From the NCBI RefSeq assembly GCF_040409955.1, contig NZ_CP123384.1, positions 2,551,501 to 2,615,500 on the forward strand: a stretch of 64,000 bases of DNA, read 5' to 3'. Numbering within the stretch: the stretch's first letter is position 1; each line of letters opens with the position of its first letter. The notes below the pieces were generated by a model. The model saw only the letters and a program-made list of their open reading frames with translations. It had not been told where the DNA came from and ran no database searches. Positions 1 to 17,961 of the stretch are shown piece by piece. Origin of the DNA: Salipiger sp. H15. Its GTDB lineage: Bacteria > Pseudomonadota > Alphaproteobacteria > Rhodobacterales > Rhodobacteraceae. Made by a program: the position numbers and the translations under genes.

Positions 1-2003
1 TAGATGCCGGTCTCGGCGTCGAGCCCTTGCCTGTCGATCCGCTTTCCATTTGGAAGCCAGAGCGGCACCGGCGAGACTGCCGCCAGCTCCGGCAGCTTCC
101 CGACGTGATCGGGGTTCTGACCATGCTGCGCCCAGAACTCGGGCGCGAGGCGCATGGGCTGCAGCTTGTCGCGCGCAGGCTTGAACACTGCAAGGTGAGG
201 CTCGCAGATCGACGCCGCGCCTGCAGCCTGGAACACGTGCGCCACGGGGCGCACAAGGTCGCGCTGCTCCTCGTCGAGGTACTTGTCGCCGACGATGTCC
301 ACCATGCGCCGCTCGACAACAGTGGCCATGGAATTGAGCCCGACCCTGACGATACGGTCCTTGGTCTCGCGCGCCGCCAGCGCGTCGAACACGTCGGACG
401 CCAGCGCGATCTGGTTGGGCATGTCCGCCCAGACCACCATGGCGCGCTCATCCGGCCCGCTGCCCACGTGCTGCGCCAGCTTCTCGGCAGCGGCGATCTG
501 GGCACGATCGCGCGTCAGCGCCTCGTGTGTCGCCTCTACCAGGAGCTGCGCCTCCTCCTCGCGCAGCTTGAGCACCTCGCCCACCAGCGAGGCCAGCGCC
601 TTGCGGTCGGGCTTCTTGCTGTCCGGAGGCATCCCGCGCAGTAGGTCGGTCGGCTCGCAGGCTCCTTGCTGCGCCTCGCGCATGAGGTCGGGCACCTGCA
701 GCAGCATCTCGGCCATGGACAGCCAGAAGACGGGCGCGGGCTGCTCCGGCAGGTCGAGGCTGAACCCGCGGTCTCCTGCCACCCCGACCGCAGGGGCTGC
801 CTGCAGCCCTGCGAGGTGGGCAAGGCCCTGCGACCACAACTTGTGCCAGCGCTTCATGTCGCCCGACCACGTCCCGGAAGGCGCGTCCGGGACGCCCTGT
901 GCCCAGAGGTCGAGCCGGGCGTCGTCCAGCCACTCGCCCTTGTAGGTCGCCGTCCTGCGCCACGCTCGCGCCAGCGTTCTGGCGACGTCGCCACCCTTGG
1001 CGCAGTGCTCCAGCAGCGGCGGCGAGGTCAGCACCAGAAGCCCGAACGCGCGCACGTCATGGACACCGGCGCTCTGCAGCTTGGATGCCAGCGACATCAG
1101 CGCGCCCGAGCGGTCGCCGCTGATCTCCTTGCGGGTCTCGATCAGGGTGCAGAGGTGCTTGCGCGTGGGGAACGCGGCGCAGAGGCCCTCGGCCAGCTTG
1201 TCGCCGTCATGCTGCTCCTTTGCCGATGCGACCGCGCCCTCGACCTGCGCGATATACACCTCAGGCACGTCGCCCGAGGCTCCTTCTCGCGCCTCTGCCT
1301 TGGGCGCGTGCGACGCCATGGCGGCGACCTCGGCGACGACGTCGAAACGCTCGCCGGTGTCTGGCTGCTCCAGCAGCACCGGCACCGGGACGCGGCCCTT
1401 CTCGCGCTTCTTGGCGTTTGGGAAGTTGATCGTCCCGGCGAGGCGCAGCCAGCGCGACAGGTCGAACGTGCCGTCGGGCGCGGCTCCGATCATCTGCCGC
1501 ACTCCTTGGTTCGCCAGTTCGATCAGTGAGCCGAACATGTGAACACCCTGCCGCTCGACCGCCTCGGGCAGGAGCCAGTAGGCGTGCAGCCCGCCGCCGG
1601 TGGCCACGACCATCGAGGGCTCGAACTCGCAGCACATGAGGCCAGCCCGCAGCTCCGCCTCGCTGCCATGGTCTCCGAAATCGAGATCCACATGAACGCA
1701 GCGCAGGTGCTCGATGTCGTCTTTCTTGGCGTTCGGGCCTGTCCTGCCCGAGGCGTAGCGCGCAGGCTTGAGGTAGATGTTGCAGTCGGCGTGCGCCTCG
1801 ACAAACGCGCGCAGCGCCTGCTGGTCGCCGGTGTACTCGAACGCGTCGCCCCGCGCGAAGTCGTCCGGATCGGGCGTCGCCCAGATCGAAACCCGCGCGC
1901 CGACGCCTCCCGAGGCGTCGATCCGGGCGAGGGTGTTGGCGTGCCTGAGGGCTGCGTCTGTATCGACGCGCAGCACGCCACTATCGTTTGTGTCTTTGGG
2001 CAT
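1..2003 (-). CDS. Archaeo-eukaryotic-type DNA primase/replication protein, partial (C-terminus beyond window)
   Basis: A frame starting at ATG 2003 stays open for 667 codons to the window edge. It carries the three hallmark motifs of AEP-superfamily (RepB-like prim-pol) primases: HVDLD at residues 104-108 (metal-binding D106 and D108), GGGLHAYW at 136-143, and RLAGTINFPNAKK at 187-199. Near residue 645 a segment NGKRIDRQGLDAETG resembles the linker that in phage and satellite replication proteins precedes an SF3/D5-type helicase domain, so a helicase may follow to the left; this is inference. A GAGGAG ribosome site lies 9 nt upstream of the start. The gene is last in the visible island operon. 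Expected role: initiating replication of the excised element. No Walker A motif is seen in the visible part. Confidence 0.85.
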   Translation of the reverse strand, partial: MPKDTNDSGVLRVDTDAALRHANTLARIDASGGVGARVSIWATPDPDDFARGDAFEYTGDQQALRAFVEAHADCNIYLKPARYASGRTGPNAKKDDIEHLRCVHVDLDFGDHGSEAELRAGLMCCEFEPSMVVATGGGLHAYWLLPEAVERQGVHMFGSLIELANQGVRQMIGAAPDGTFDLSRWLRLAGTINFPNAKKREKGRVPVPVLLEQPDTGERFDVVAEVAAMASHAPKAEAREGASGDVPEVYIAQVEGAVASAKEQHDGDKLAEGLCAAFPTRKHLCTLIETRKEISGDRSGALMSLASKLQSAGVHDVRAFGLLVLTSPPLLEHCAKGGDVARTLARAWRRTATYKGEWLDDARLDLWAQGVPDAPSGTWSGDMKRWHKLWSQGLAHLAGLQAAPAVGVAGDRGFSLDLPEQPAPVFWLSMAEMLLQVPDLMREAQQGACEPTDLLRGMPPDSKKPDRKALASLVGEVLKLREEEAQLLVEATHEALTRDRAQIAAAEKLAQHVGSGPDERAMVVWADMPNQIALASDVFDALAARETKDRIVRVGLNSMATVVERRMVDIVGDKYLDEEQRDLVRPVAHVFQAAGAASICEPHLAVFKPARDKLQPMRLAPEFWAQHGQNPDHVGKLPELAAVSPVPLWLPNGKRIDRQGLDAETGI

Positions 2004-2070
2004 CTATTCGGTCTCCTCGCCCTGTCACAGCAGGGGATTGCGTCGCGGGACGGGGAGACGTAGGGTGAAC

Positions 2071-2082
2071 GTGCAATTGCAC
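2071..2082. promoter_or_regulatory. Palindromic operator candidate upstream of primase
   Basis: GTGCAATTGCAC is a perfect 12-bp palindrome about 68 bp upstream of the primase start. A second, overlapping inverted pair AGGGTG/CACCCT flanks it (2062-2067 and 2080-2085). The position suits an operator or replication-protein site; the binding protein is unknown, although the AlpA-like protein of the same element is a candidate. Confidence 0.4.
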
Positions 2083-2197
2083 CCTATGTCGTGCGTCATC
2101 ACGACTTGGTTTGAAGGTCGAGGTTCACGCCTCGGCCTTCTTCCGTTTCAGGATGCGGGGAACGCCCATCACCCCAAGCGAATGACCAGCTATTGGG

Positions 2198-2231
2198 CCG
2201 CTCGACCTCGGGCTCATTCGAGGTCGAGCGG
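2198..2231. repeat. Perfect 13-bp stem, 8-nt loop hairpin
   Basis: CCGCTCGACCTCG (2198-2210) is exactly complementary to 2219-2231, with loop GGCTCATT. No T-run follows on either strand, so it is not a typical intrinsic terminator. It lies in the gap upstream of the primase gene, where a priming or origin structure would be plausible. Confidence 0.55.
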
Positions 2232-2281
2232 TGAGCCCCTATATGTGGTCGTCGTTGGTGTTGACGGACCTTGAGCGTAGC

Positions 2282-2301
2282 GCGCCCTCTGCGGAGGGCG
2301 C
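2282..2301 (-). terminator. GC hairpin after the 2311-2898 gene, no T-run
   Basis: GCGCCCTC and GAGGGCGC form an 8-bp stem with loop TGCG, 10 bp past the stop codon of the leftward gene. It lacks a downstream U-tract, so it may attenuate or stabilise the 3' end rather than terminate fully. Confidence 0.35.
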
Positions 2302-2310
2302 AAGGGCCGA

Positions 2311-2898
2311 TCAGATGACCCGCCGGACTCTCTCTTCCTTGTGCGCGAGTACTCGGTCGATGTGCGCGAGCACGTCTTCGCTCTTGAGCCAGTCCCTGAC
2401 CCACCCGTCGAGGAGGTCTAGCACCTCGCGCGGGGTCAGCCCGAGCAGCAGGTCGTCATCAGACGCGCCGTGGTACTCGCTCACGACGTCTCCCCTGCCG
2501 TTGGTGTGGAAGACAGCCAGGCCGCCGCCCACCGAGTTGAAAACGGATTCAGCGTGATCCTTTACGCCCTCGGCGGCGACCACCGGTAGCTGCCAGAGCA
2601 GACCGCGCTTGTCAGGTCGTTCGATGCGGTTGAGCAAGGCCCACACGACGTCGCCTTGACCAAACAGCCGCTCACCGTCTCGAAGTGGAATGTGGAAGTC
2701 TCCTCTGTTGAGTTCCAGGTCGAGCGTCAGCCCGTAGCGCTTCACGTCCGGGTCATAGCGCTCCTTCAGCACCGCGAACGCGCCTTTCAGCACGGCGCGC
2801 CGCGCTGCGTTCTCCCGTTCGGATCGGGCCTTGTTCTCGCGCTCTGCCGCCCGCTCTGCGGCGCGTCGCGCGATAGTCTGGTGGAATTCCTCGTCCAT
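2311..2898 (-). CDS. Island protein of unknown function (195 aa)
   Basis: The family is not recognised. The first 50 residues are strongly charged and helical (repeated RRAAERAAEREN pattern), likely a coiled coil. The rest looks globular, with an acidic, helical C-terminal part (LTPREVLDLLDGWVRDWL). An excellent AAGGAG ribosome site precedes ATG 2898, and the gene begins 17 nt after the stop of its upstream neighbour, so both are almost certainly co-transcribed and expressed. Codon use and position support a real gene. No transmembrane segment or catalytic motif can be seen. Confidence 0.75.
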   Translation of the reverse strand: MDEEFHQTIARRAAERAAERENKARSERENAARRAVLKGAFAVLKERYDPDVKRYGLTLDLELNRGDFHIPLRDGERLFGQGDVVWALLNRIERPDKRGLLWQLPVVAAEGVKDHAESVFNSVGGGLAVFHTNGRGDVVSEYHGASDDDLLLGLTPREVLDLLDGWVRDWLKSEDVLAHIDRVLAHKEERVRRVI

Positions 2899-2915
2899 CT
2901 CTGTCTCCTTTAAGG

Positions 2916-3653
2916 TCAGCGCTTGAACAGGTGCGGGAACCGCGCCTCGGCGGCGGGGATGCCCTCGGCCTCGGCGAGTCGCTGATACGCTTGCTGGCTA
3001 TCGTTCAGTTCGTGTGGGCCGAGAAAGGTGCGGAGCGATACGCCTCGGACGTAGTCGCCCCTCGGGTAGCGGGTGAGCGACGTTGCGGCGACCCAGAGGC
3101 CAGCACCCGAGGGGATGCCGAACGTCCGCCGCACCGCACCCGGAGCCATCGCGTTCCGCACCGCGAGCCGGAAGTCGTCCAGGCGGACGATCCTGAGCAC
3201 CTCGGCGTCGAGTTTCCGCAGCAGGTGCTCGCGCGGATCGCCCGCGCCGCCGCGCTCCACCCATCGGCGCATCGCGTGTTCGATCAGGCCCACGTTGATC
3301 GAGGTGTCCGGGTCGGGCCGCACCGGGTCGTATTCGGCGACCTCGTAGGTAATCCCACGGATGGCGTAAGTTTCGCCTCGGTGCGGCCTCTCCGTGAGGC
3401 ACTCCGGCACCCTGCGGAGGACTTCCAGAACGGGGCGCGAGCGGGTGCCGGTCACCCGCGCCGCGACCGTTGACCGGTCCCGCTTGAGCCGCGCTGCGAC
3501 CCGCCCGAGCGCCTTGGCGGAATGCCCGCTGCGACCCCCTCGGAAGCGCCCCGCCTGCACCGCCGTCTGCGCCAATTCCTGCGCCTCGCGCATCGCTCGG
3601 GTCACGACCCCCCGCGACAGCAGCGTGCAGGCGCTTTCCGAACTCAACGTCAT
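2916..3653 (-). CDS. Island protein of unknown function (245 aa)
   Basis: The function is not recognised. A very strong ribosome site (AGGAGG) precedes ATG 3653. The N-terminal 75 residues are rich in Arg and Ala, including SAKALGRVAARLKRDRSTVAAR, which could bind nucleic acid. The middle (GETYAIRGITYEVAEYDP) looks like a small beta-rich module, and the C-terminus is helical. It lies between the AlpA-like gene and another unknown gene in the leftward island block. It could be a satellite-specific regulator or replication accessory; nothing in the sequence decides this. Confidence 0.7.
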   Translation of the reverse strand: MTLSSESACTLLSRGVVTRAMREAQELAQTAVQAGRFRGGRSGHSAKALGRVAARLKRDRSTVAARVTGTRSRPVLEVLRRVPECLTERPHRGETYAIRGITYEVAEYDPVRPDPDTSINVGLIEHAMRRWVERGGAGDPREHLLRKLDAEVLRIVRLDDFRLAVRNAMAPGAVRRTFGIPSGAGLWVAATSLTRYPRGDYVRGVSLRTFLGPHELNDSQQAYQRLAEAEGIPAAEARFPHLFKR

Positions 3654-3731
3654 GTCTGCCTCCTTTCGTCAGGCAAGCCGGTACCGCTCGCCCTCAGGCG
3701 TCAGAGGTCTCCGGCGATGTTGGGGGTCAAG

Positions 3732-4070
3732 TCAGAGCAGGTCGGCTTTTGTCGCCCTGCGGCGCTTGTGCGCGGCGGTTTCGATGCGCTCGGCGAGGAT
3801 CAGTTCGGCGATGTCGCTGCTCTTATAGAAGACCCGCGAGCCCCACTTGTAATGCGGCGGCATCACGCCTCTCGAGCGCTGCATCTGGAGTGTGCCGACA
3901 TCGACCCCGCGCAGTTCCGCGACCTCATCCTCGGTCAGCAGACCGGCGTCGCTCAGCATCTTCGAAACGGTCGATGAGTAGCGGGGGCGGGGGATGCTCT
4001 GGATCAGCGCCTCAAGTTGCGCTTCCACGCTGGCGGGAAGACGGATCGCTCCCTGTGCAAGGTCTTCCAT
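3732..4070 (-). CDS. AlpA/excisionase-like helix-turn-helix protein
   Basis: Residues 45-91 (LLTEDEVAELRGVDVGTLQ, then PPHYKWGSRVFYKSSDIAELI) have the layout of MerR/AlpA/Xis-type winged helix-turn-helix domains: a helix pair that reads DNA, then the wing with the typical G-x-R-V-x-Y strand. In phage satellites such proteins activate integrase expression or direct excision. The N-terminal 40 residues may be a dimerisation helix. ATG 4070 has an AGGAG site 9 nt upstream. The C-terminus is very basic. It lies two genes downstream of the integrase in the same orientation, as expected for an excision or regulatory partner. Confidence 0.75.
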   Translation of the reverse strand: MEDLAQGAIRLPASVEAQLEALIQSIPRPRYSSTVSKMLSDAGLLTEDEVAELRGVDVGTLQMQRSRGVMPPHYKWGSRVFYKSSDIAELILAERIETAAHKRRRATKADLL

Positions 4071-4134
4071 GTGGTGTGTCTCCTGTTTCCGGTGCTGGAC
4101 TCAGGATGGCAGAACAAATCTGGGGGGAGAATTT

Positions 4135-4560
4135 TCACCCCCAGCTTTCTTTCGTCTCGCCCAAGAATCTTCTGACAGTGTCGTAGGCGGGGGCAGGGGC
4201 ATCGGTCGCCCTCCAGCGCGTCAGCACGCGCCGCGTGGCGGTGCTGACGTTGGCCTCGCCCTTGCAATGGGCCTGTGCCAGCCCGAGGGCGATGGAGCGC
4301 CACACGGCCCCGTCCTGCGCCCTCTGTGCGCCCGAGCCCCTGCCGCTCGCCACCCGCCGCAGGTGGGTCTCCTCCTGCGCCGCGTCGAGGGCGCGCAGCG
4401 CGGCGTTCACTCCGATCCAGTCCTCCGACCGCCCGTCCTCCGGCGGGATGCTGTCCCGCCAGAGTTCGAGGAACTCGCGCAGGCCCTCGGGAGGCACGGG
4501 GCGCGCCTCCTGTGCCTGCTCGGCGTTGCGCCGCAACGACTCACGGCCCTTGCGGTCCAT
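4135..4560 (-). CDS. Island protein of unknown function, coupled to the integrase (141 aa)
   Basis: The start codon overlaps the integrase stop by one base (TGATG), so translation is probably coupled. The protein is helical and charged, rich in Arg, Glu and Ala, without membrane segments or known motifs. It ends 64 bp before the AlpA-like gene. The close coupling suggests a role tied to recombination (for example a recombination-directionality or accessory factor), but that is inference from position only. Confidence 0.65.
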   Translation of the reverse strand: MDRKGRESLRRNAEQAQEARPVPPEGLREFLELWRDSIPPEDGRSEDWIGVNAALRALDAAQEETHLRRVASGRGSGAQRAQDGAVWRSIALGLAQAHCKGEANVSTATRRVLTRWRATDAPAPAYDTVRRFLGETKESWG

Positions 4561-5582
4561 CAGGCGCGCGCCAGCGCGGCATGGACGTCCGCAGCCCCAA
4601 GTTGCGTATAGCGCTTCAGGTGCTTCCAGTCGCGGTGCCCGCTCACGACGGCGACAAGTTCGATCCCAAGACCGGCGCGGAACAGCGACGTGACGGCGAG
4701 ATGCCGCAGGTCGTGGAAGTGCAGATCCGCAATGCCCAGCTTAGCGACGGCGCGGGTAAAGGCGGTCGAGGCGCTCTTGGCCTCGTAATCGAAAATCCGT
4801 CCCGACGTCCGGTCGCCCGCATGTTTGATTGCCAGATCGAACGCGGTCCCGACCAGCGGAACAGTCTGGTCGTTGCGCGCCTTTCGGCGCGGGTCCTTGC
4901 GCTCGCGGATGATGACGGTGCGCGCCTCGCGGTCGAAGTCTTCGATGCGGATGCGGGTGATCTCGGACAGGCGCATGGCGCTTGCCGCGCCGAACTTGGT
5001 GATGTCGCCCATCGGAATTCCTTGGCGCGGGTTGCCGTCGAAGTAGGCCACCAGCGCCGCCAGTTCGTCATCGGTCGGGATGCGGTCGCGCTCCTGACTG
5101 CGGGTGTCGATCCGCGCCGCCGTCAGGTCGCCACGGGCCTCCGCCGCCAGCTTCTCGTTGATGTCCAGTTTCTTGACCCTGCGACCCCACTTCAGAACGG
5201 CGCTCAGCGCCGACAGGTCGCCCGCCAGCGTCGCGCCGGTGATGCCATCCTTGCGGCGGCGCTCGACGAACTCGGCCATATGGACGGCGTCGAGGTGCTT
5301 CAGCTTCACCTTGCCCAGCGCGCCGCCCTTGATCCGGTTCAGCGTCGCCTTGGTCGTCCGGCCCGTCTCGACCTGTTCGAGGTATGCGCCCATCAGGTCG
5401 CCGAACGTCAGCGCTTCGCTGGAGATGGTGCCCGCCTGCGAGCCCTGACCGACGGCCCGCTCGATGTCTGCAGCCCACGCCTTGGCATCGGCCTTGCGGT
5501 CGAAGGTCCGAGCCTTGTATATACCCTGCTTCCGCACTTGCGCGCGGTACTTGCCCGAGGGCAGCTTGGTGATGGTCGCCAT
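4560..5582 (-). CDS. dusA-targeting tyrosine recombinase (integrase)
   Basis: This 340-residue phage integrase has an N-terminal arm-binding domain (residues 1-45, the LPSGKYRAQVRKQGIYKARTF type), a core-binding SAM-like domain (about 60-150), and a C-terminal catalytic domain. The catalytic set is complete: Arg204 (SAMRLSEI), His290 and Arg293 (HFHDLRH), His316 (SGHRDW) and nucleophile Tyr325 (KRYTQL). It starts 101 bp from the dusA start and points away from it, the classic arrangement for an integrase beside its own attachment site. The upstream region holds a good promoter and direct repeats fitting arm-type sites. It catalyses integration into, and with a partner excision from, the start of dusA. 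Confidence 0.95.
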   Translation of the reverse strand: MATITKLPSGKYRAQVRKQGIYKARTFDRKADAKAWAADIERAVGQGSQAGTISSEALTFGDLMGAYLEQVETGRTTKATLNRIKGGALGKVKLKHLDAVHMAEFVERRRKDGITGATLAGDLSALSAVLKWGRRVKKLDINEKLAAEARGDLTAARIDTRSQERDRIPTDDELAALVAYFDGNPRQGIPMGDITKFGAASAMRLSEITRIRIEDFDREARTVIIRERKDPRRKARNDQTVPLVGTAFDLAIKHAGDRTSGRIFDYEAKSASTAFTRAVAKLGIADLHFHDLRHLAVTSLFRAGLGIELVAVVSGHRDWKHLKRYTQLGAADVHAALARA

Positions 5583-5645
5583 CCGTGTGCATCCCGTGTG
5601 CTAGAGAACGTCAAAGAATGTATACGGTTTGTACATCCCGTGTGC
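5580..5645. repeat. Three direct repeats, candidate integrase arm sites
   Basis: CATCCGTGTGC (5580-5590) and two copies of CATCCCGTGTGC (5590-5601 and 5634-5645) lie head to tail between the integrase start and the dusA junction. Tyrosine integrases bind short direct repeats flanking the crossover core, so these are good arm-site candidates. The first copy overlaps the integrase start codon, which could let the integrase repress its own translation or transcription. Confidence 0.5.
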
Positions 5646-5647
5646 AA
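5619..5647 (-). promoter_or_regulatory. Sigma70-type promoter for the integrase operon
   Basis: Reading leftward, TTGCAC (5647-5642) and TATACA (5624-5619) are separated by exactly 17 bp. Transcription would start near 5612, giving a leader of about 30 nt before the integrase ATG at 5582. One of the direct repeats overlaps the -35 box, so integrase binding could autoregulate. Confidence 0.6.
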
Positions 5648-5682
5648 TGTATGTGCAAAATATGCCGGAAAACGCCGACAAC

Positions 5683-6678
5683 ATGCCTAATAAAACATTG
5701 AATTATCACGCTAAATTATCTGTCGCCCCGATGATGGACTGGACCGACCGGCATTGCCGCTACCTGCACCGCATCCTGTCGCGGCAGACGCTGCTCTATA
5801 CCGAGATGGTGACCTCGCCGGCGCTGGTGCGGGGCGGGGCGCTGCACCTTTTGACCCATGATCCCGCGGAACACCCGGTGGCGCTGCAGCTCGGCGGGTC
5901 GGACCCGGTGGAGCTGGCGCATGCGGCAAAGCTCGGGGCCGAGGCGGGCTACGACGAGATCAACCTCAACTGCGGCTGCCCCTCGGACCGGGTGCAGTCG
6001 GGCACCTTCGGCGCGGTGCTGATGAAGCACCCCGAGCTGGTCGCCGACTGCGTTGCCGCCATGCGCGAAGCGGTCGATGTCGAGGTGACGGTGAAATGCC
6101 GCATCGGCGTCGACGAGCAGGAGCCGCGCGAGGTGCTGCCGGACTTCCTCGAGAAGATCGCCACGGCGGGCTGCGAGAGGGTGACGATCCATGCCCGCAA
6201 GGCCTGGCTCAAGGGGCTGAGCCCGCGGGAGAACCGCGACATCCCGCCGCTCGACTACGAGCTGGTGCACGAGATGAAGGCGGCCTTCCCGCGGCTGCAT
6301 GTCTCGATCAACGGCGGGGTGCAGAGCCTCGAGGAGGCCGAGGCGCATCTCGCGCGCGGGCTCGACGGGGTGATGATCGGCCGCTCGGCCTACCACACGC
6401 CGTGGGACGTGCTGGCCGAGGCCGATGCGCGGATCTACGGCACCGGCACCGAGACCGTCTCACCCGACGAGGCGGTCGCCGCCATGGTGCCCTACATCGA
6501 GCGGCACATCGCGACGGGCGGCCGGCTGCACCAGGTCACGCGCCACATGCTCGGGCTCTTCTCGGGCCGACCGGGGGCGCGGAAATGGCGGCAGGTGCTG
6601 TCCGAGAAGGCCTCGCGCGATGGCGCCGGCACCGAGGTGCTGGACGAGGCGCTGGGGCGGATGCGCGAGGCGGCCTGA
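5683..6678 (+). CDS. dusA: tRNA-dihydrouridine(20/20a) synthase DusA
   Basis: DusA reduces specific D-loop uridines of tRNA using FMN and NADPH. The protein (331 aa from this start) has the family signatures: SVAPMMDWTDRHCRY near the N-terminus, the active-site NCGCPSDRVQ (catalytic Cys about residue 99), and INGGVQS / MIGRSAY phosphate-binding turns of the TIM barrel. The start is uncertain: ATG 5683 gives a normal length, while ATG 5647 and 5662 and TTG 5629 are in frame upstream. The first dozen codons are A+T-rich, unlike the rest, because the integrated element replaced the native 5' end. Promoter and ribosome site must therefore now come from the island. Confidence 0.95.
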   Translation: MPNKTLNYHAKLSVAPMMDWTDRHCRYLHRILSRQTLLYTEMVTSPALVRGGALHLLTHDPAEHPVALQLGGSDPVELAHAAKLGAEAGYDEINLNCGCPSDRVQSGTFGAVLMKHPELVADCVAAMREAVDVEVTVKCRIGVDEQEPREVLPDFLEKIATAGCERVTIHARKAWLKGLSPRENRDIPPLDYELVHEMKAAFPRLHVSINGGVQSLEEAEAHLARGLDGVMIGRSAYHTPWDVLAEADARIYGTGTETVSPDEAVAAMVPYIERHIATGGRLHQVTRHMLGLFSGRPGARKWRQVLSEKASRDGAGTEVLDEALGRMREAA

Positions 6679-14826: not shown

Positions 14827-16065
14827 TCAGTCGGTCGCGAGACCCGCACGGCCGGCGCCGTCGCGCACGATGGCGAGTGCCTCGGGCTGGGTGGCGAAGA
14901 CCTGCTGCGCCTCGGTCCAGATCGCCGCGGCGCGGTCGGTCTGGCCAAGCACGCCGAGTGCGGTCAGCAGGCGCGCCCATTCCTCGGGGCTGCCGCCCTG
15001 GCTGGCGAGCCGATCGGAGAGGTTCTCGACCATGCCCTCGATCATCGCCTGGCGGTCCTCGTCGGACATGCCGGCGGCGGCCTGCATGTCGCCGGCGCTG
15101 GGGCCGGGCAGGGCGCCTGCGCCCGCGGTCTCGGGCAACTGGTAGTCGTTGATCCCGGCGCGCAGCGCGAGCTCGGGGATCTGCTCGGAGATGGCGGGGA
15201 CCCAGGGCGCGTCGGCGGGGCTGTCGCGCAGCAGCATGTCCCAGATGCGGAAGGCGCTGTCGGGGCGGCCGGTCTGGGCCATCATCAGCCCGCCGTAATA
15301 GCGCGCGACGCCGTTGTGCGGATCGCGCTTCATCACCTCGTCGAGCGCCGCCTCGGCCTCGGGCGAGACGTAGCCGCCCGCGGCCAGCACCATCATGTCG
15401 GCAAGGTCGGCGTAATCCGAGGCGGCGGCCTCGGCGCCGCGCAACTCGATCACCCGGCGCTGCGCCGCGTAGGCCGCGGCATAGTTGCCGAGCGCCGCCT
15501 CGGAGCGGGCGAGCAGGGCCTGGCCCTGCAGGTCGTCCGGGCGCGCCTTCACCGCCTCGCGCAGGCGCACGACCAGCTGGGCGTATTCCTCGGGGGCATC
15601 GGCGGCGGGGGCGGAGGGCACGGCGGCCTCGGCCTCGGCCTGGCTCGGACGGCCCTCGCGCAGCGCCTCGGCGGCCGCGATGCGGCTGCGCAGTCCAAGA
15701 TCGCCATAGCCCGGCGCGCCGAGCCGCGTGTAGAGCGCGTAGCTGCCGCCGAGCAGGGCGAGCAGCACCAGCGCCGCGATGACCCGGCGCGGACCGGCGC
15801 CGATGGTCCCGGCGGCACCCTGATGCGCGCGGGCATCGGCGGCAAGGATGCGGCGCGAGACCTCGGTGCGCAGCCGCTCCGCCTCGGCCTCGCCGATGGT
15901 GCCGCGGGCGCGGTCGCGGTCGATCTCGGAGAGCTGGTCGCGATAGACCCGCAGGTCGAAGGCCTCGGCCCCGGCGATCTCGCTGCGGCTGCGCAGCAGG
16001 GCCAGCAGCAGCGGCGTCGATACCGCCAGCACCGCCAGCACCGTCACGATCCAGAATGTGGTCAT
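14827..16065 (-). CDS. ccmI: Cytochrome c biogenesis protein CcmI
   Basis: CcmI holds apocytochrome c for heme attachment by the Ccm system in the inner membrane. The 412-aa protein begins with a membrane helix (residues 4-24), then the CcmI-I helical segment (AEAFDLRVYRDQLSEIDRDRARGTI), a second membrane helix near residue 95 (VIAALVLLALLGGSYALY), and a periplasmic TPR-like region. The TPR part has repeats around YADLADMMVLAAGGYVSPEAEAAL and a Pro/Ala-rich linker. It is divergent from soxB; other ccm genes are not in the window. ATG 16065 has GGGAGAG upstream. Confidence 0.9.
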   Translation of the reverse strand: MTTFWIVTVLAVLAVSTPLLLALLRSRSEIAGAEAFDLRVYRDQLSEIDRDRARGTIGEAEAERLRTEVSRRILAADARAHQGAAGTIGAGPRRVIAALVLLALLGGSYALYTRLGAPGYGDLGLRSRIAAAEALREGRPSQAEAEAAVPSAPAADAPEEYAQLVVRLREAVKARPDDLQGQALLARSEAALGNYAAAYAAQRRVIELRGAEAAASDYADLADMMVLAAGGYVSPEAEAALDEVMKRDPHNGVARYYGGLMMAQTGRPDSAFRIWDMLLRDSPADAPWVPAISEQIPELALRAGINDYQLPETAGAGALPGPSAGDMQAAAGMSDEDRQAMIEGMVENLSDRLASQGGSPEEWARLLTALGVLGQTDRAAAIWTEAQQVFATQPEALAIVRDGAGRAGLATD

Positions 16066-16231
16066 CAGATCTCTCCCGTTCTTCGAAGTGTGTAGCCGGG
16101 AGGCGCGCGGGAAAAAAGGGTGAAGCGGCGCGGCATTTGGACCACTCGCAGCGGCGTGATCCGCGCCGGGTTTCTGCCGATCCGGCAAATCCGCGCCACC
16201 GGGGTGGTTGCAGCCGCCCGCGGGCCGTGCA

Positions 16232-16245
16232 GGTATCAAGATACC
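16232..16245. promoter_or_regulatory. Palindrome upstream of soxB
   Basis: GGTATCAAGATACC is a perfect inverted repeat (6-bp arms, AA centre) 31 bp before the soxB start and 167 bp from the divergent ccmI start. Position fits an operator for the sarcosine oxidase genes. The regulator is unknown. Confidence 0.5.
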
Positions 16246-16276
16246 CAAGGGGACAACAGCGGCGGATTCGACCACC

Positions 16277-17521
16277 ATGAAACGCTATTCGGTTTTTGCC
16301 ATCGCCCGCGAGGCGGCACGCTACCACACCGGCTGGGCGCGCGCCTGGCGCAAGCCCGAGCCGAAGCGCCGCTACCAGGTGGTGATCATCGGCGCCGGCG
16401 GGCATGGCCTCGCCACCGCCTACTACCTTGGCAAGAACTTCGGCATCACCGACGTCGCCATCGTCGAGAAGGGCTGGCTCGGCGGCGGCAACACCGGGCG
16501 CAACACCACGATCATCCGCTCGAACTACCTGCAGGATCCCTCCGCCGCGATCTACGAGAAGGCCCGCGCGCTCTACGAGGGGCTGAGCCAGGATCTCAAC
16601 TACAACGTCATGTTCTCGCCCCGCGGCGTGATGATGCTGGCGCAGACCGAGCACGAGCTGCGCGGCTACCAGCGCACCGTGCACGCCAACCGCCTGCAGG
16701 GCATCGAGACCGAGATGATCGGCCCGCGCGAGGTCAAGCGTCTCTGCCCGATCATGAACATCGACGGCCCGCGCTACCCGGTGCTGGGCGCGCTCTGGCA
16801 GGCGCGCGGCGGCACGGCGCGGCACGATGCCGTCGCCTGGGGCTACGCGCGGGCCTGCTCGGACATGGGCATGGACATCCTGCAGAACGCCGAGGTCACC
16901 GCGATCCGCTCGGAGGGCGGCAAGGTGCGCGGCGTGACCACGACCCGGGGCGAGATCGACTGCGACAAGCTCGGCATCGTCGTCGCCGGCCATTCCGGCG
17001 TCATGGCCGAGAAGGCGGGCTTCCGCCTGCCCATCGAGTCCGTCGCGCTGCAGGCGCTGGTGTCGGAACCGATCAAGCCCTGCATGGACGTGGTGGTCAT
17101 GGCCAACACGGTGCACGGCTATATGAGCCAGTCCGACAAGGGCGAGATGGTGATCGGCGGCGGCACCGACGGCTTCGTCAACTATGCGCAGCGCGGCTCG
17201 TTCCAGCACATCGAGGAGACGGTGCGCGCGCTGACCGAGACCTTCCCGATGATCTCCCGCCTCAAGATGCTGCGGCAATGGGGCGGCATCGTCGACGTCA
17301 CCGGCGACCGCTCGCCGATCCTATCGAAGACGCCGCTCGAGAACTGCTTCCTCAACTGCGGCTGGGGCACCGGCGGGTTCAAGGCGATCCCCGGCTCGGG
17401 CTGGGGCTTTGCCGAGCTCATGGTCAAGGGCCACTCGCCGCTCACCGCAGAGTTCGGCCTCGACCGCTTCCGCGAGGGCCGCTTCATCGACGAGAGCGTC
17501 GCGGCCGGGGTGGCGCATTGA
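16277..17521 (+). CDS. soxB: Sarcosine oxidase beta subunit
   Basis: The beta subunit of heterotetrameric sarcosine oxidase carries FAD and covalent FMN and oxidatively demethylates sarcosine to glycine. The dinucleotide fold IIGAGGHGLATAYYLG starts near residue 38. His183 in RGGTARHDAVAWG matches the family's covalent FMN site. The C-terminal WGGIVDVTGDRSPILSKTP segment and length (414 aa) fit. ATG 16277 was chosen from length; the frame is open upstream but not similar to the family. Unusually, soxD, soxA and soxG follow only after two unrelated genes. Confidence 0.95.
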   Translation: MKRYSVFAIAREAARYHTGWARAWRKPEPKRRYQVVIIGAGGHGLATAYYLGKNFGITDVAIVEKGWLGGGNTGRNTTIIRSNYLQDPSAAIYEKARALYEGLSQDLNYNVMFSPRGVMMLAQTEHELRGYQRTVHANRLQGIETEMIGPREVKRLCPIMNIDGPRYPVLGALWQARGGTARHDAVAWGYARACSDMGMDILQNAEVTAIRSEGGKVRGVTTTRGEIDCDKLGIVVAGHSGVMAEKAGFRLPIESVALQALVSEPIKPCMDVVVMANTVHGYMSQSDKGEMVIGGGTDGFVNYAQRGSFQHIEETVRALTETFPMISRLKMLRQWGGIVDVTGDRSPILSKTPLENCFLNCGWGTGGFKAIPGSGWGFAELMVKGHSPLTAEFGLDRFREGRFIDESVAAGVAH

Positions 17522-17547
17522 GCGCGCACCCCCTGCTTTCCGGCGGC

Positions 17548-17961
17548 TCAGTGCCGCGTGGCGCGCGGCAGCGTCACCGGCAGCGGCGCGGCCAGTTCCA
17601 TCAGCCCGGCATGGGCGCCGTGCCCGTCGTTGCAGGGCGGGTGCCAGCTCTGGATGAATTCCCGCGCCACGGCGTGACGGTCCTCGGGACGGGCGAGCGC
17701 CACGGCACCGATCGTGTCGAAGCCCATCTCGTCGGCCCGCGCCCAGGCCCCGCCCGGAAGCTTGTCCTGCGCCAGCTGCGAGCCGAGCGCGCAGGTCTCG
17801 CCGACATAGAGGATCTGCGCCTGCACGGCCCGGCCCTCGGGCAGGCGGAGCAGCATGTAGACCGCGCCCGCCTCGGCAAGCTCGGTGTCGCGGGTGAACA
17901 ATTCCACCGGGTAGCGCCGGCCGAGATGGCTGGTCAGCGTGAGGGTCAGAAGTCTGCTCAT
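17548..17961 (-). CDS. Hypothetical protein with GIY-YIG-like YVGET segment (137 aa)
   Basis: The frame starts at ATG 17961 and reads MSRLLTLTLTSHLGRRYPVELF. A segment AVYMLLR...QILYVGETCALGSQL loosely resembles the two strands and start of the helix of GIY-YIG folds, but the conserved Arg and Glu of nucleases cannot be assigned, so activity is not claimed. It lies antisense between soxB and soxD, interrupting an operon that is normally contiguous. Confidence 0.6.
   Translation of the reverse strand: MSRLLTLTLTSHLGRRYPVELFTRDTELAEAGAVYMLLRLPEGRAVQAQILYVGETCALGSQLAQDKLPGGAWARADEMGFDTIGAVALARPEDRHAVAREFIQSWHPPCNDGHGAHAGLMELAAPLPVTLPRATRH

Follow-up and report, generated by a model that had tools for sequence, protein, structure and literature searches.

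The 64,000-nucleotide stretch of Salipiger sp. H15 analysed here (the window, G000:C1:2551501-2615500; negative coordinates lie to its left, and L005 coordinates are window coordinates plus 11500) begins inside a mobile element of 17,161 bp, counting both attachment (att) copies, that is inserted in the 5' part of dusA. This element, called A below, carries a gene for a tape-measure protein (TMP) of the lambda type and a conserved trio of genes, all to the left of the window and so beyond the sequence on which the initial annotation was based. The reading that we favour, at somewhat better than even confidence, is that A is a helper-dependent phage satellite resembling the phage-inducible chromosomal islands (PICIs), resides in the 5' end of dusA and builds chimeric tails. 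We also offer a wider proposal, which taken whole is tentative and open to real doubt: A may represent a satellite family of Rhodobacterales that is marked by the trio, lacks shell genes and hijacks siphophages like Rhodovulum phage vB_RhkS_P1 by TMP replacement. Both docking ends of the protein would be kept and its middle shortened, short chimeric tails would mark satellite particles, anti-phage genes would be swapped in at the tmp locus, and helper assembly would be the target of the peptidase module.

The bounds of the element came from comparison with empty sites, an exact-repeat search having failed to expose the att sites. Ten dusA regions from 19 other genomes of the genus (20 with G000, the window genome) were compared by blastn, and three of them (L070, L072 and L073) are exact empty sites, in which the left flank aligns to -11398 and dusA from 5722, with a 21-bp overlap in the relative. 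The flank of L071 aligned to -11579 and its dusA from 5722, with about 600 bp in between; five regions (L074-L078) aligned only over dusA and downstream sequence, and the site in L069 is occupied. The junction that the initial annotation had placed in dusA is borne out by these empty sites, and the leftward extension it had proposed led to the second att copy, 11.4 kb outside the window, where the displaced start of dusA precedes the att copy as a duplicated fragment at the element's far end. The two copies form a 21-bp dusA repeat with 18 of 21 bases identical and three differences. An integrase gene at the 5' end of dusA, semiconserved direct repeats of about 21 bp and a replaced dusA 5' end make A a dusA-specific genomic island; passages of PMC4482086 describe the same repeats and replacement for such islands, with very mixed cargo and sizes of 4.8-185 kb. 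These islands are a class by integration site, however, and the passages in question do not describe the gene set of A.

Read from dusA, the genes are int, h141, the AlpA-like gene, h245, h195, the primase-helicase, h149, h111, h96, h250 and the tape-measure gene, followed by h74, h235, h144, h207, h197 and far-end frames. All are on the minus strand except, among the far-end frames, a gene for a protein of 245 amino acids (aa) on the plus strand (-11223..-10486); gene starts were set by rule of thumb. The integrase, AlpA/Xis-like regulator, unknown proteins and primase that had been read as running in one direction from dusA are thus all present. The AlpA-like protein scored 24.3 bits with HTH_17, under the 27-bit cut-off, and its other match, phrog_66, is an excisionase/regulator family. 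The N-terminal part of the primase-helicase matches the DNA primase family phrog_10514 (8.8e-9), and its residues 636-882 match phrog_10537 (2.3e-23). Family scans covered six element proteins, then ten (the whole primase and nine others), then eight, three of which overlapped or repeated earlier ones. Among the proteins scanned there was no match to a large terminase or to the capsid, protease or portal of a capsid module of the element's own, and all three PF05065 matches in the genome lie outside the element. Genes for a capsid, portal or tail to the left of the window had been named as the sign of a full prophage: one tail gene does lie there, yet of the set of capsid, portal, large terminase and tail module only the TMP was found, and A is not a complete prophage. 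The suggestion that the satellite is autonomous finds no support, because no particle-making gene set was found. Lacking recognisable shell genes, the element probably travels in the particles of other phages.

The assignment of the tape measure draws on several lines of evidence. Its PHROG matches (phrog_167 2.3e-10, phrog_1538 7.8e-10 and phrog_2335 5.3e-7) are, up to an E value of 5.3e-7, tape measures; against PF09718 (cut-off 23 bits) it scored 18.5 bits in one scan, 21.7 in another and 23.3, over the cut-off, when taken with neighbours. Two of its blocks recur in the phage tape measures P0001 and P0003: one on the N side, which in element A reads DF.VQV.GG....AFGQQ..Q.AGLLP, and one on the C side, around IDGS.S..EAF.DM. 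Its GC content by codon position (0.66/0.49/0.89) is that of a coding gene, and it also scores on an SMC model (5.1e-5), as is usual for coiled coils. Among the 8000 best candidates in a large protein database, three proteins matched it at E <=0.001, all distant. The gene before it, h250, and that for a 248-aa protein before the TMP of the related element B encode products that match the same family, phrog_16336 (2.5e-5 and 3.9e-5 respectively).

The trio comprises genes for a coiled-coil protein (h235), a small protein (h144) and an HExxH protein (h207). Nine loci, A to I, were compared, and eight of them have the trio in the same order; the ninth, E, entered the set through its tape measure. 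The eight trio elements are spread over four genera of the family and several integration sites. As the loci were found through h207, its sharing is by selection, and that of h235 and h144 is not. The HExxH zinc motif is present in all ten sequences of alignment A9 and in seven of the eight elements in alignment A7, element G lacking the first His, and h207 is a candidate for a peptidase of FtsH-like (M41) fold. It occurs in four of the 20 genus genomes (five loci) and in four of 394 genomes of the family sample, the window genome included; ten proteins were found in the protein database, including the A, F, H and I proteins, and searches of phage records, plasmid records, viral contigs and PDB sequences gave none. 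Matches to h235 were found in 21 of the 394 genomes. Four were strong (9.7e-33 or better) and fell in the h207 genomes; the other 17, at 5.5e-7 to 7.1e-4 and almost all confined to a short stretch, were taken as coiled-coil chance. The primase had matches in 38 of 295 family genomes including its own, the others distant, and in four proteins at E <=0.001, all distant, among the 8000 best candidates in the large database; the integrase had three distant matching loci in viral contigs. As far as these searches reach, the trio-bearing elements are a rare family. A second HExxH protein directly follows h207 in elements C, G, H and I (L098 2637-3320; L107; L109; L111-L112); those of G, H and I are mutually related and that of C is not clearly so.

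Element F, of about 16.6 kb, occupies the same dusA site in Alloyangia pacifica (G304), a member of the same genus; the earlier view that a small integrative element of PICI-like kind sits at dusA in a genome of the Rhodobacterales is supported. Related in the two are int, h141, the AlpA-like gene, h245, h149, h111, h96, h74, h235, h144, h207 and h197; the primase of A has no match in F. Between h96 and h74, F has an opposite-direction PifA-type gene (PADLOC 5.8e-260) in place of h250 and tmp, and it keeps matches to both ends of the replaced locus (h250 residues 1-30 and tape-measure residues 672-706). The PifA-type KAP NTPase is encoded at L069 9114-11558; the far end (15291-17907) encodes an AbiJ-like protein and, next to it, two proteins without a match. 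Element B, the second of the A. pacifica genome, spans about 17.7 kb at tRNA-Met and is flanked by 14-bp repeats. It has a different integrase, h245, h149, the trio, the 248-aa protein and a 603-aa TMP, with an 846-aa protein at the position of the replication gene; opposite the tRNA-Met site, the window holds oxidoreductase-like genes (28.3-32.1 kb, named by eye) and no element was seen. In element C (G301) the trio is accompanied by a 767-aa TMP. Element D (G305), between 58-bp tRNA-Leu repeats, has the trio without a TMP match; a type III restriction-modification pair (methylase 3.1e-285; nuclease match partial, 6.1e-9) separates the trio from h149. The anticipation of defence genes in such elements thus holds for the relatives of A. 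Elements G, H (Sulfitobacter sp. JL08) and I (Roseivivax lentus), from three other genera, also have the trio and no TMP match; just before the trio, H and I have small-terminase matches (8.6e-9 and 3.5e-3). In all, an intact TMP is found in three of the eight trio elements, with a remnant in a fourth. Element E, from a congener (L102 7417-17560, G306:C17), measures 10.1 kb between 47-bp tRNA-Cys repeats and encodes an integrase, a protease-capsid fusion, a 714-aa TMP, a small terminase and a replication ATPase of the AAA type; among the four of its proteins scanned, neither a portal nor a large terminase was noticed. It is nearer than A to the capsid-forming PICIs (cf-PICIs).

One alternative explanation for these data is that the tape measure is an interference gene, a decoy that spoils the tail assembly of an infecting phage and is one of a rotating set of anti-phage genes. 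The PifA-type protein in the tmp slot of F with the AbiJ-like protein at its far end, the restriction-modification pair of D and the five of eight trio elements without an intact TMP can all be read in this way, and tail assembly is a known target of the satellite-borne defence Tai in passages of PMC11364771. A decoy is nonetheless unlikely in our view, given that conserved tape-measure blocks are retained and that a related partner gene directly precedes the TMP in two divergent elements, which fits use as a part; building-part and interference roles are compatible and do not exclude each other. It is improbable that A is a decayed prophage, now a mere passenger that has retained an integrase, a primase and one tail gene. 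The long open frames throughout the element, its exact ends and the empty sites argue against decay, as do the shared core genes of elements that integrated independently and the dN/dS ratios of nine gene pairs between A and F (0.14 for int, 0.33-0.74 for the eight others), set against the single recognised tail gene, the loss of parts seen in F and one study, in passages of PMC4482086, in which about half of the dusA-specific islands were prophages and the remainder islands and remnants. Least probable is an integrative defence island that spreads without phage particles, for example by transformation or conjugative mobilisation, with the TMP as chance cargo: variable defence cargo and the lack of an identified packaging gene in A accord with it, and the TMPs in three of eight trio elements with a remnant in a fourth, together with the small-terminase matches of H and I, speak against it.

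For the satellite reading the class of helper phage was sought through the tape measure. The window genome has prophages P1 (TMP of 1907 aa) and P2 (757 aa) and a gene-transfer-agent (GTA)-like cluster, and a profile of satellite TMP C-termini matched none of the three. Prophage P2 was rejected as helper: the match of its TMP to the satellite TMP profile (1.9e-6) had a bias (24.0) above its score (20.0), and the C-terminus test missed it. Among 230 proteins the C-terminus profile found the tape measure of Rhodovulum phage vB_RhkS_P1 (1.4e-4; next 2). The minor tail protein of this phage has strong relatives (E <1e-30) in five of the 20 genus genomes and weaker ones in six. The satellite profile also reached, weakly (0.03-0.29), the TMPs of five prophages of the vB_RhkS_P1 type, among six matches below 1 in 2952 frames. 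A reverse profile, made from the phage and those five, ranked A, B, C and the remnant in F as the top four of 4051 frames (B 2.1e-6, A 5.7e-6, the other two 1.7e-3 and 4.5e-3; next 0.52; reversed control 0.14), and a profile of the phage with a G301 prophage ranked B first (8.6e-4) and A second (0.03). The N-terminal parts match the TMP of a G295 prophage (A 6.9e-8, B 3.3e-10, C 1.1e-15, E 8.8e-67), and that of E also matches a G088 TMP (1.3e-32). The sequences suggest a link to vB_RhkS_P1-like siphophages that we grade as firm for B and E and fair for A and C, and since the N-side block and the phage-like C-terminus are kept, siphophages of this type are the predicted helpers. All four satellite TMPs (A 707, B 603, C 767 and E 714 aa) are shorter than five of the seven vB_RhkS_P1-type TMPs (643, 750, 1076, 1291, 1300, 1307 and 1313 aa; starts uncertain in both sets). 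When set against the 1076-aa protein, A and B have their largest gaps within the final 40% of its length (up to residues 1044 and 1055), and C and E have theirs scattered.

We propose that, during growth of a helper siphophage in the cell, the element would be cut out by Int and the AlpA-like protein, copied by its own primase-helicase and packaged in helper heads. The satellite tape measure would be built into helper tails, its C-terminus presumably docking on the tail tip, to give chimeric and usually shorter tails, and anti-phage cargo could take the place of the tmp locus. Helper dependence, packaging, tail chimerism and a role for the trio are inferred here on the precedent of the phage-inducible chromosomal island-like elements (PLEs), the Vibrio cholerae satellites of phage ICP1.

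Several points weigh against this proposal. Excision, replication, packaging and particles are predictions from the genes. The product of h149, at the position where H and I have their small-terminase matches, shows no small-terminase similarity, and searches gave no support for it as such; the tape measure has been lost from sister element F. DNA words in common with the resident prophages and GTA-like cluster are no longer than in chromosomal controls, and G000 itself has no vB_RhkS_P1-like tail protein match, so that the helper would come from outside. The prophage C-termini in the reverse profile had been chosen via satellite-profile matches and are not independent. Phage vB_RhkS_P1 used alone gave a firm match only for B (1.7e-5), with C (0.19) and A (0.21) at ranks 2 and 3 and F at rank 5; the unselected G301 prophage alone singled out no satellite TMP, placing A at rank 8 (0.98), and its best match (0.0052) was an unrelated frame. 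Among six vB_RhkS_P1-type prophage TMPs, the one from G295 is alone in matching A, B and C at E <=0.01. The lengths also overlap, phage vB_RhkS_P1 having 643 aa and G088 750 aa against 603-767 aa in the satellites.

Table 1. Features of element A and its integration site (window coordinates).
Feature	Position	Strand	Remarks
attL	-11418..-11398 (G000:C1:2540082-2540102)		left of window; partner of attR
Tape measure, 707 aa	-6022..-3899	-	only recognisable structural gene
h250	-3899..-3147	-	directly precedes tape-measure gene
Primase-helicase, 1064 aa	-1191..2003 (G000:C1:2550309-2553503)	-	in-window part 1..2003
h195, no assigned function	2311..2898	-	this element only, among nine loci compared
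h245, no assigned function	2916..3653	-	relatives in elements F, B and D
AlpA/MerR-type helix-turn-helix (HTH), putative excisionase-regulator	3732..4070	-	HTH_17 3.7e-5; phrog_66 2.4e-6
h141, no assigned family	4135..4560	-	common to A. pacifica dusA element; no family match in scans
Tyrosine integrase, 340 aa	4560..5582	-	PF00589 2.6e-19; 94% identical in A. pacifica dusA element
dusA	5629..6678	+	Dus 1.4e-82; 5' end now element-derived
attR core	5722..5742	+	within 5' part of dusA

Some matches were too weak to use: those of the AlpA-like protein to the terminase small subunit family phrog_57 (0.05), h96 to the major tail protein family phrog_1696 (0.051), h245 to PF05354 (0.028) and h235 to the virion structural protein family phrog_16040 (0.032). 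Searches of the element for iterons and RNA families gave nothing convincing. A near-perfect AT-rich double palindrome stands in its far-end region (L005 1159-1215, window -10341..-10285); as RNA it reached a microRNA-model score far under the gathering score, which was taken as chance. Elsewhere in the genome, two large prophages at G000:C2 (about 52-88 kb and 845-878 kb) have similar early genes and different tail modules, and the GTA-like cluster is at G000:C1, about 2443-2457 kb.

Gram-negative PICIs have int and an AlpA-like regulator at one end, a replication gene of their own and no phage structural genes; a helper phage induces and packages them, and many carry a small terminase. Element A resembles them in its integrase and AlpA-like regulator at one end (the latter match under the Pfam cut-off), its primase-replication gene, small size, defence cargo and lack of a capsid match, and differs in carrying a tape-measure gene, which is a phage structural gene, and the trio, and in that no small terminase was recognised. 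PLEs likewise have their own tape measure and a neighbouring small tail-related gene. Passages of a 2026 report (PMC12987554) describe chimeric tails that incorporate the PLE tape measure; deleting tmp lowers transduction there by 96 to 99.9%, and the tails of PLE11 are about 10 nm shorter. The chimeric tails concern one satellite family, and other satellites also encode putative tmp genes, some cf-PICIs being said to do so. Compared by description only, A differs from the PLEs in bacterial class, lambda-type TMP, insertion at dusA (tRNA genes in its relatives), the peptidase trio and the lack of a recognised baseplate protein; a putative tmp aligns it with those cf-PICIs, from which the lack of a capsid match separates it. 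Titles and abstracts on satellites with TMPs, PICIs and Rhodobacter or Alphaproteobacteria described no such Rhodobacterales element, most subscription papers lying outside this coverage. A satellite with its own tape measure has thus been a known kind since 2026, and this trio-bearing family and its trio look new. What they would add is a family of satellite-like elements that comes from another bacterial class, has no recognisable capsid genes and carries a lambda-type TMP whose ends point to siphophages with relatives in the same genus. This makes it testable how a satellite TMP is chosen over that of the helper, and whether anti-phage cargo is an alternative to tail replacement, and it puts forward the HExxH protein of the trio, present in eight elements, as an uncharacterised candidate for helper manipulation.

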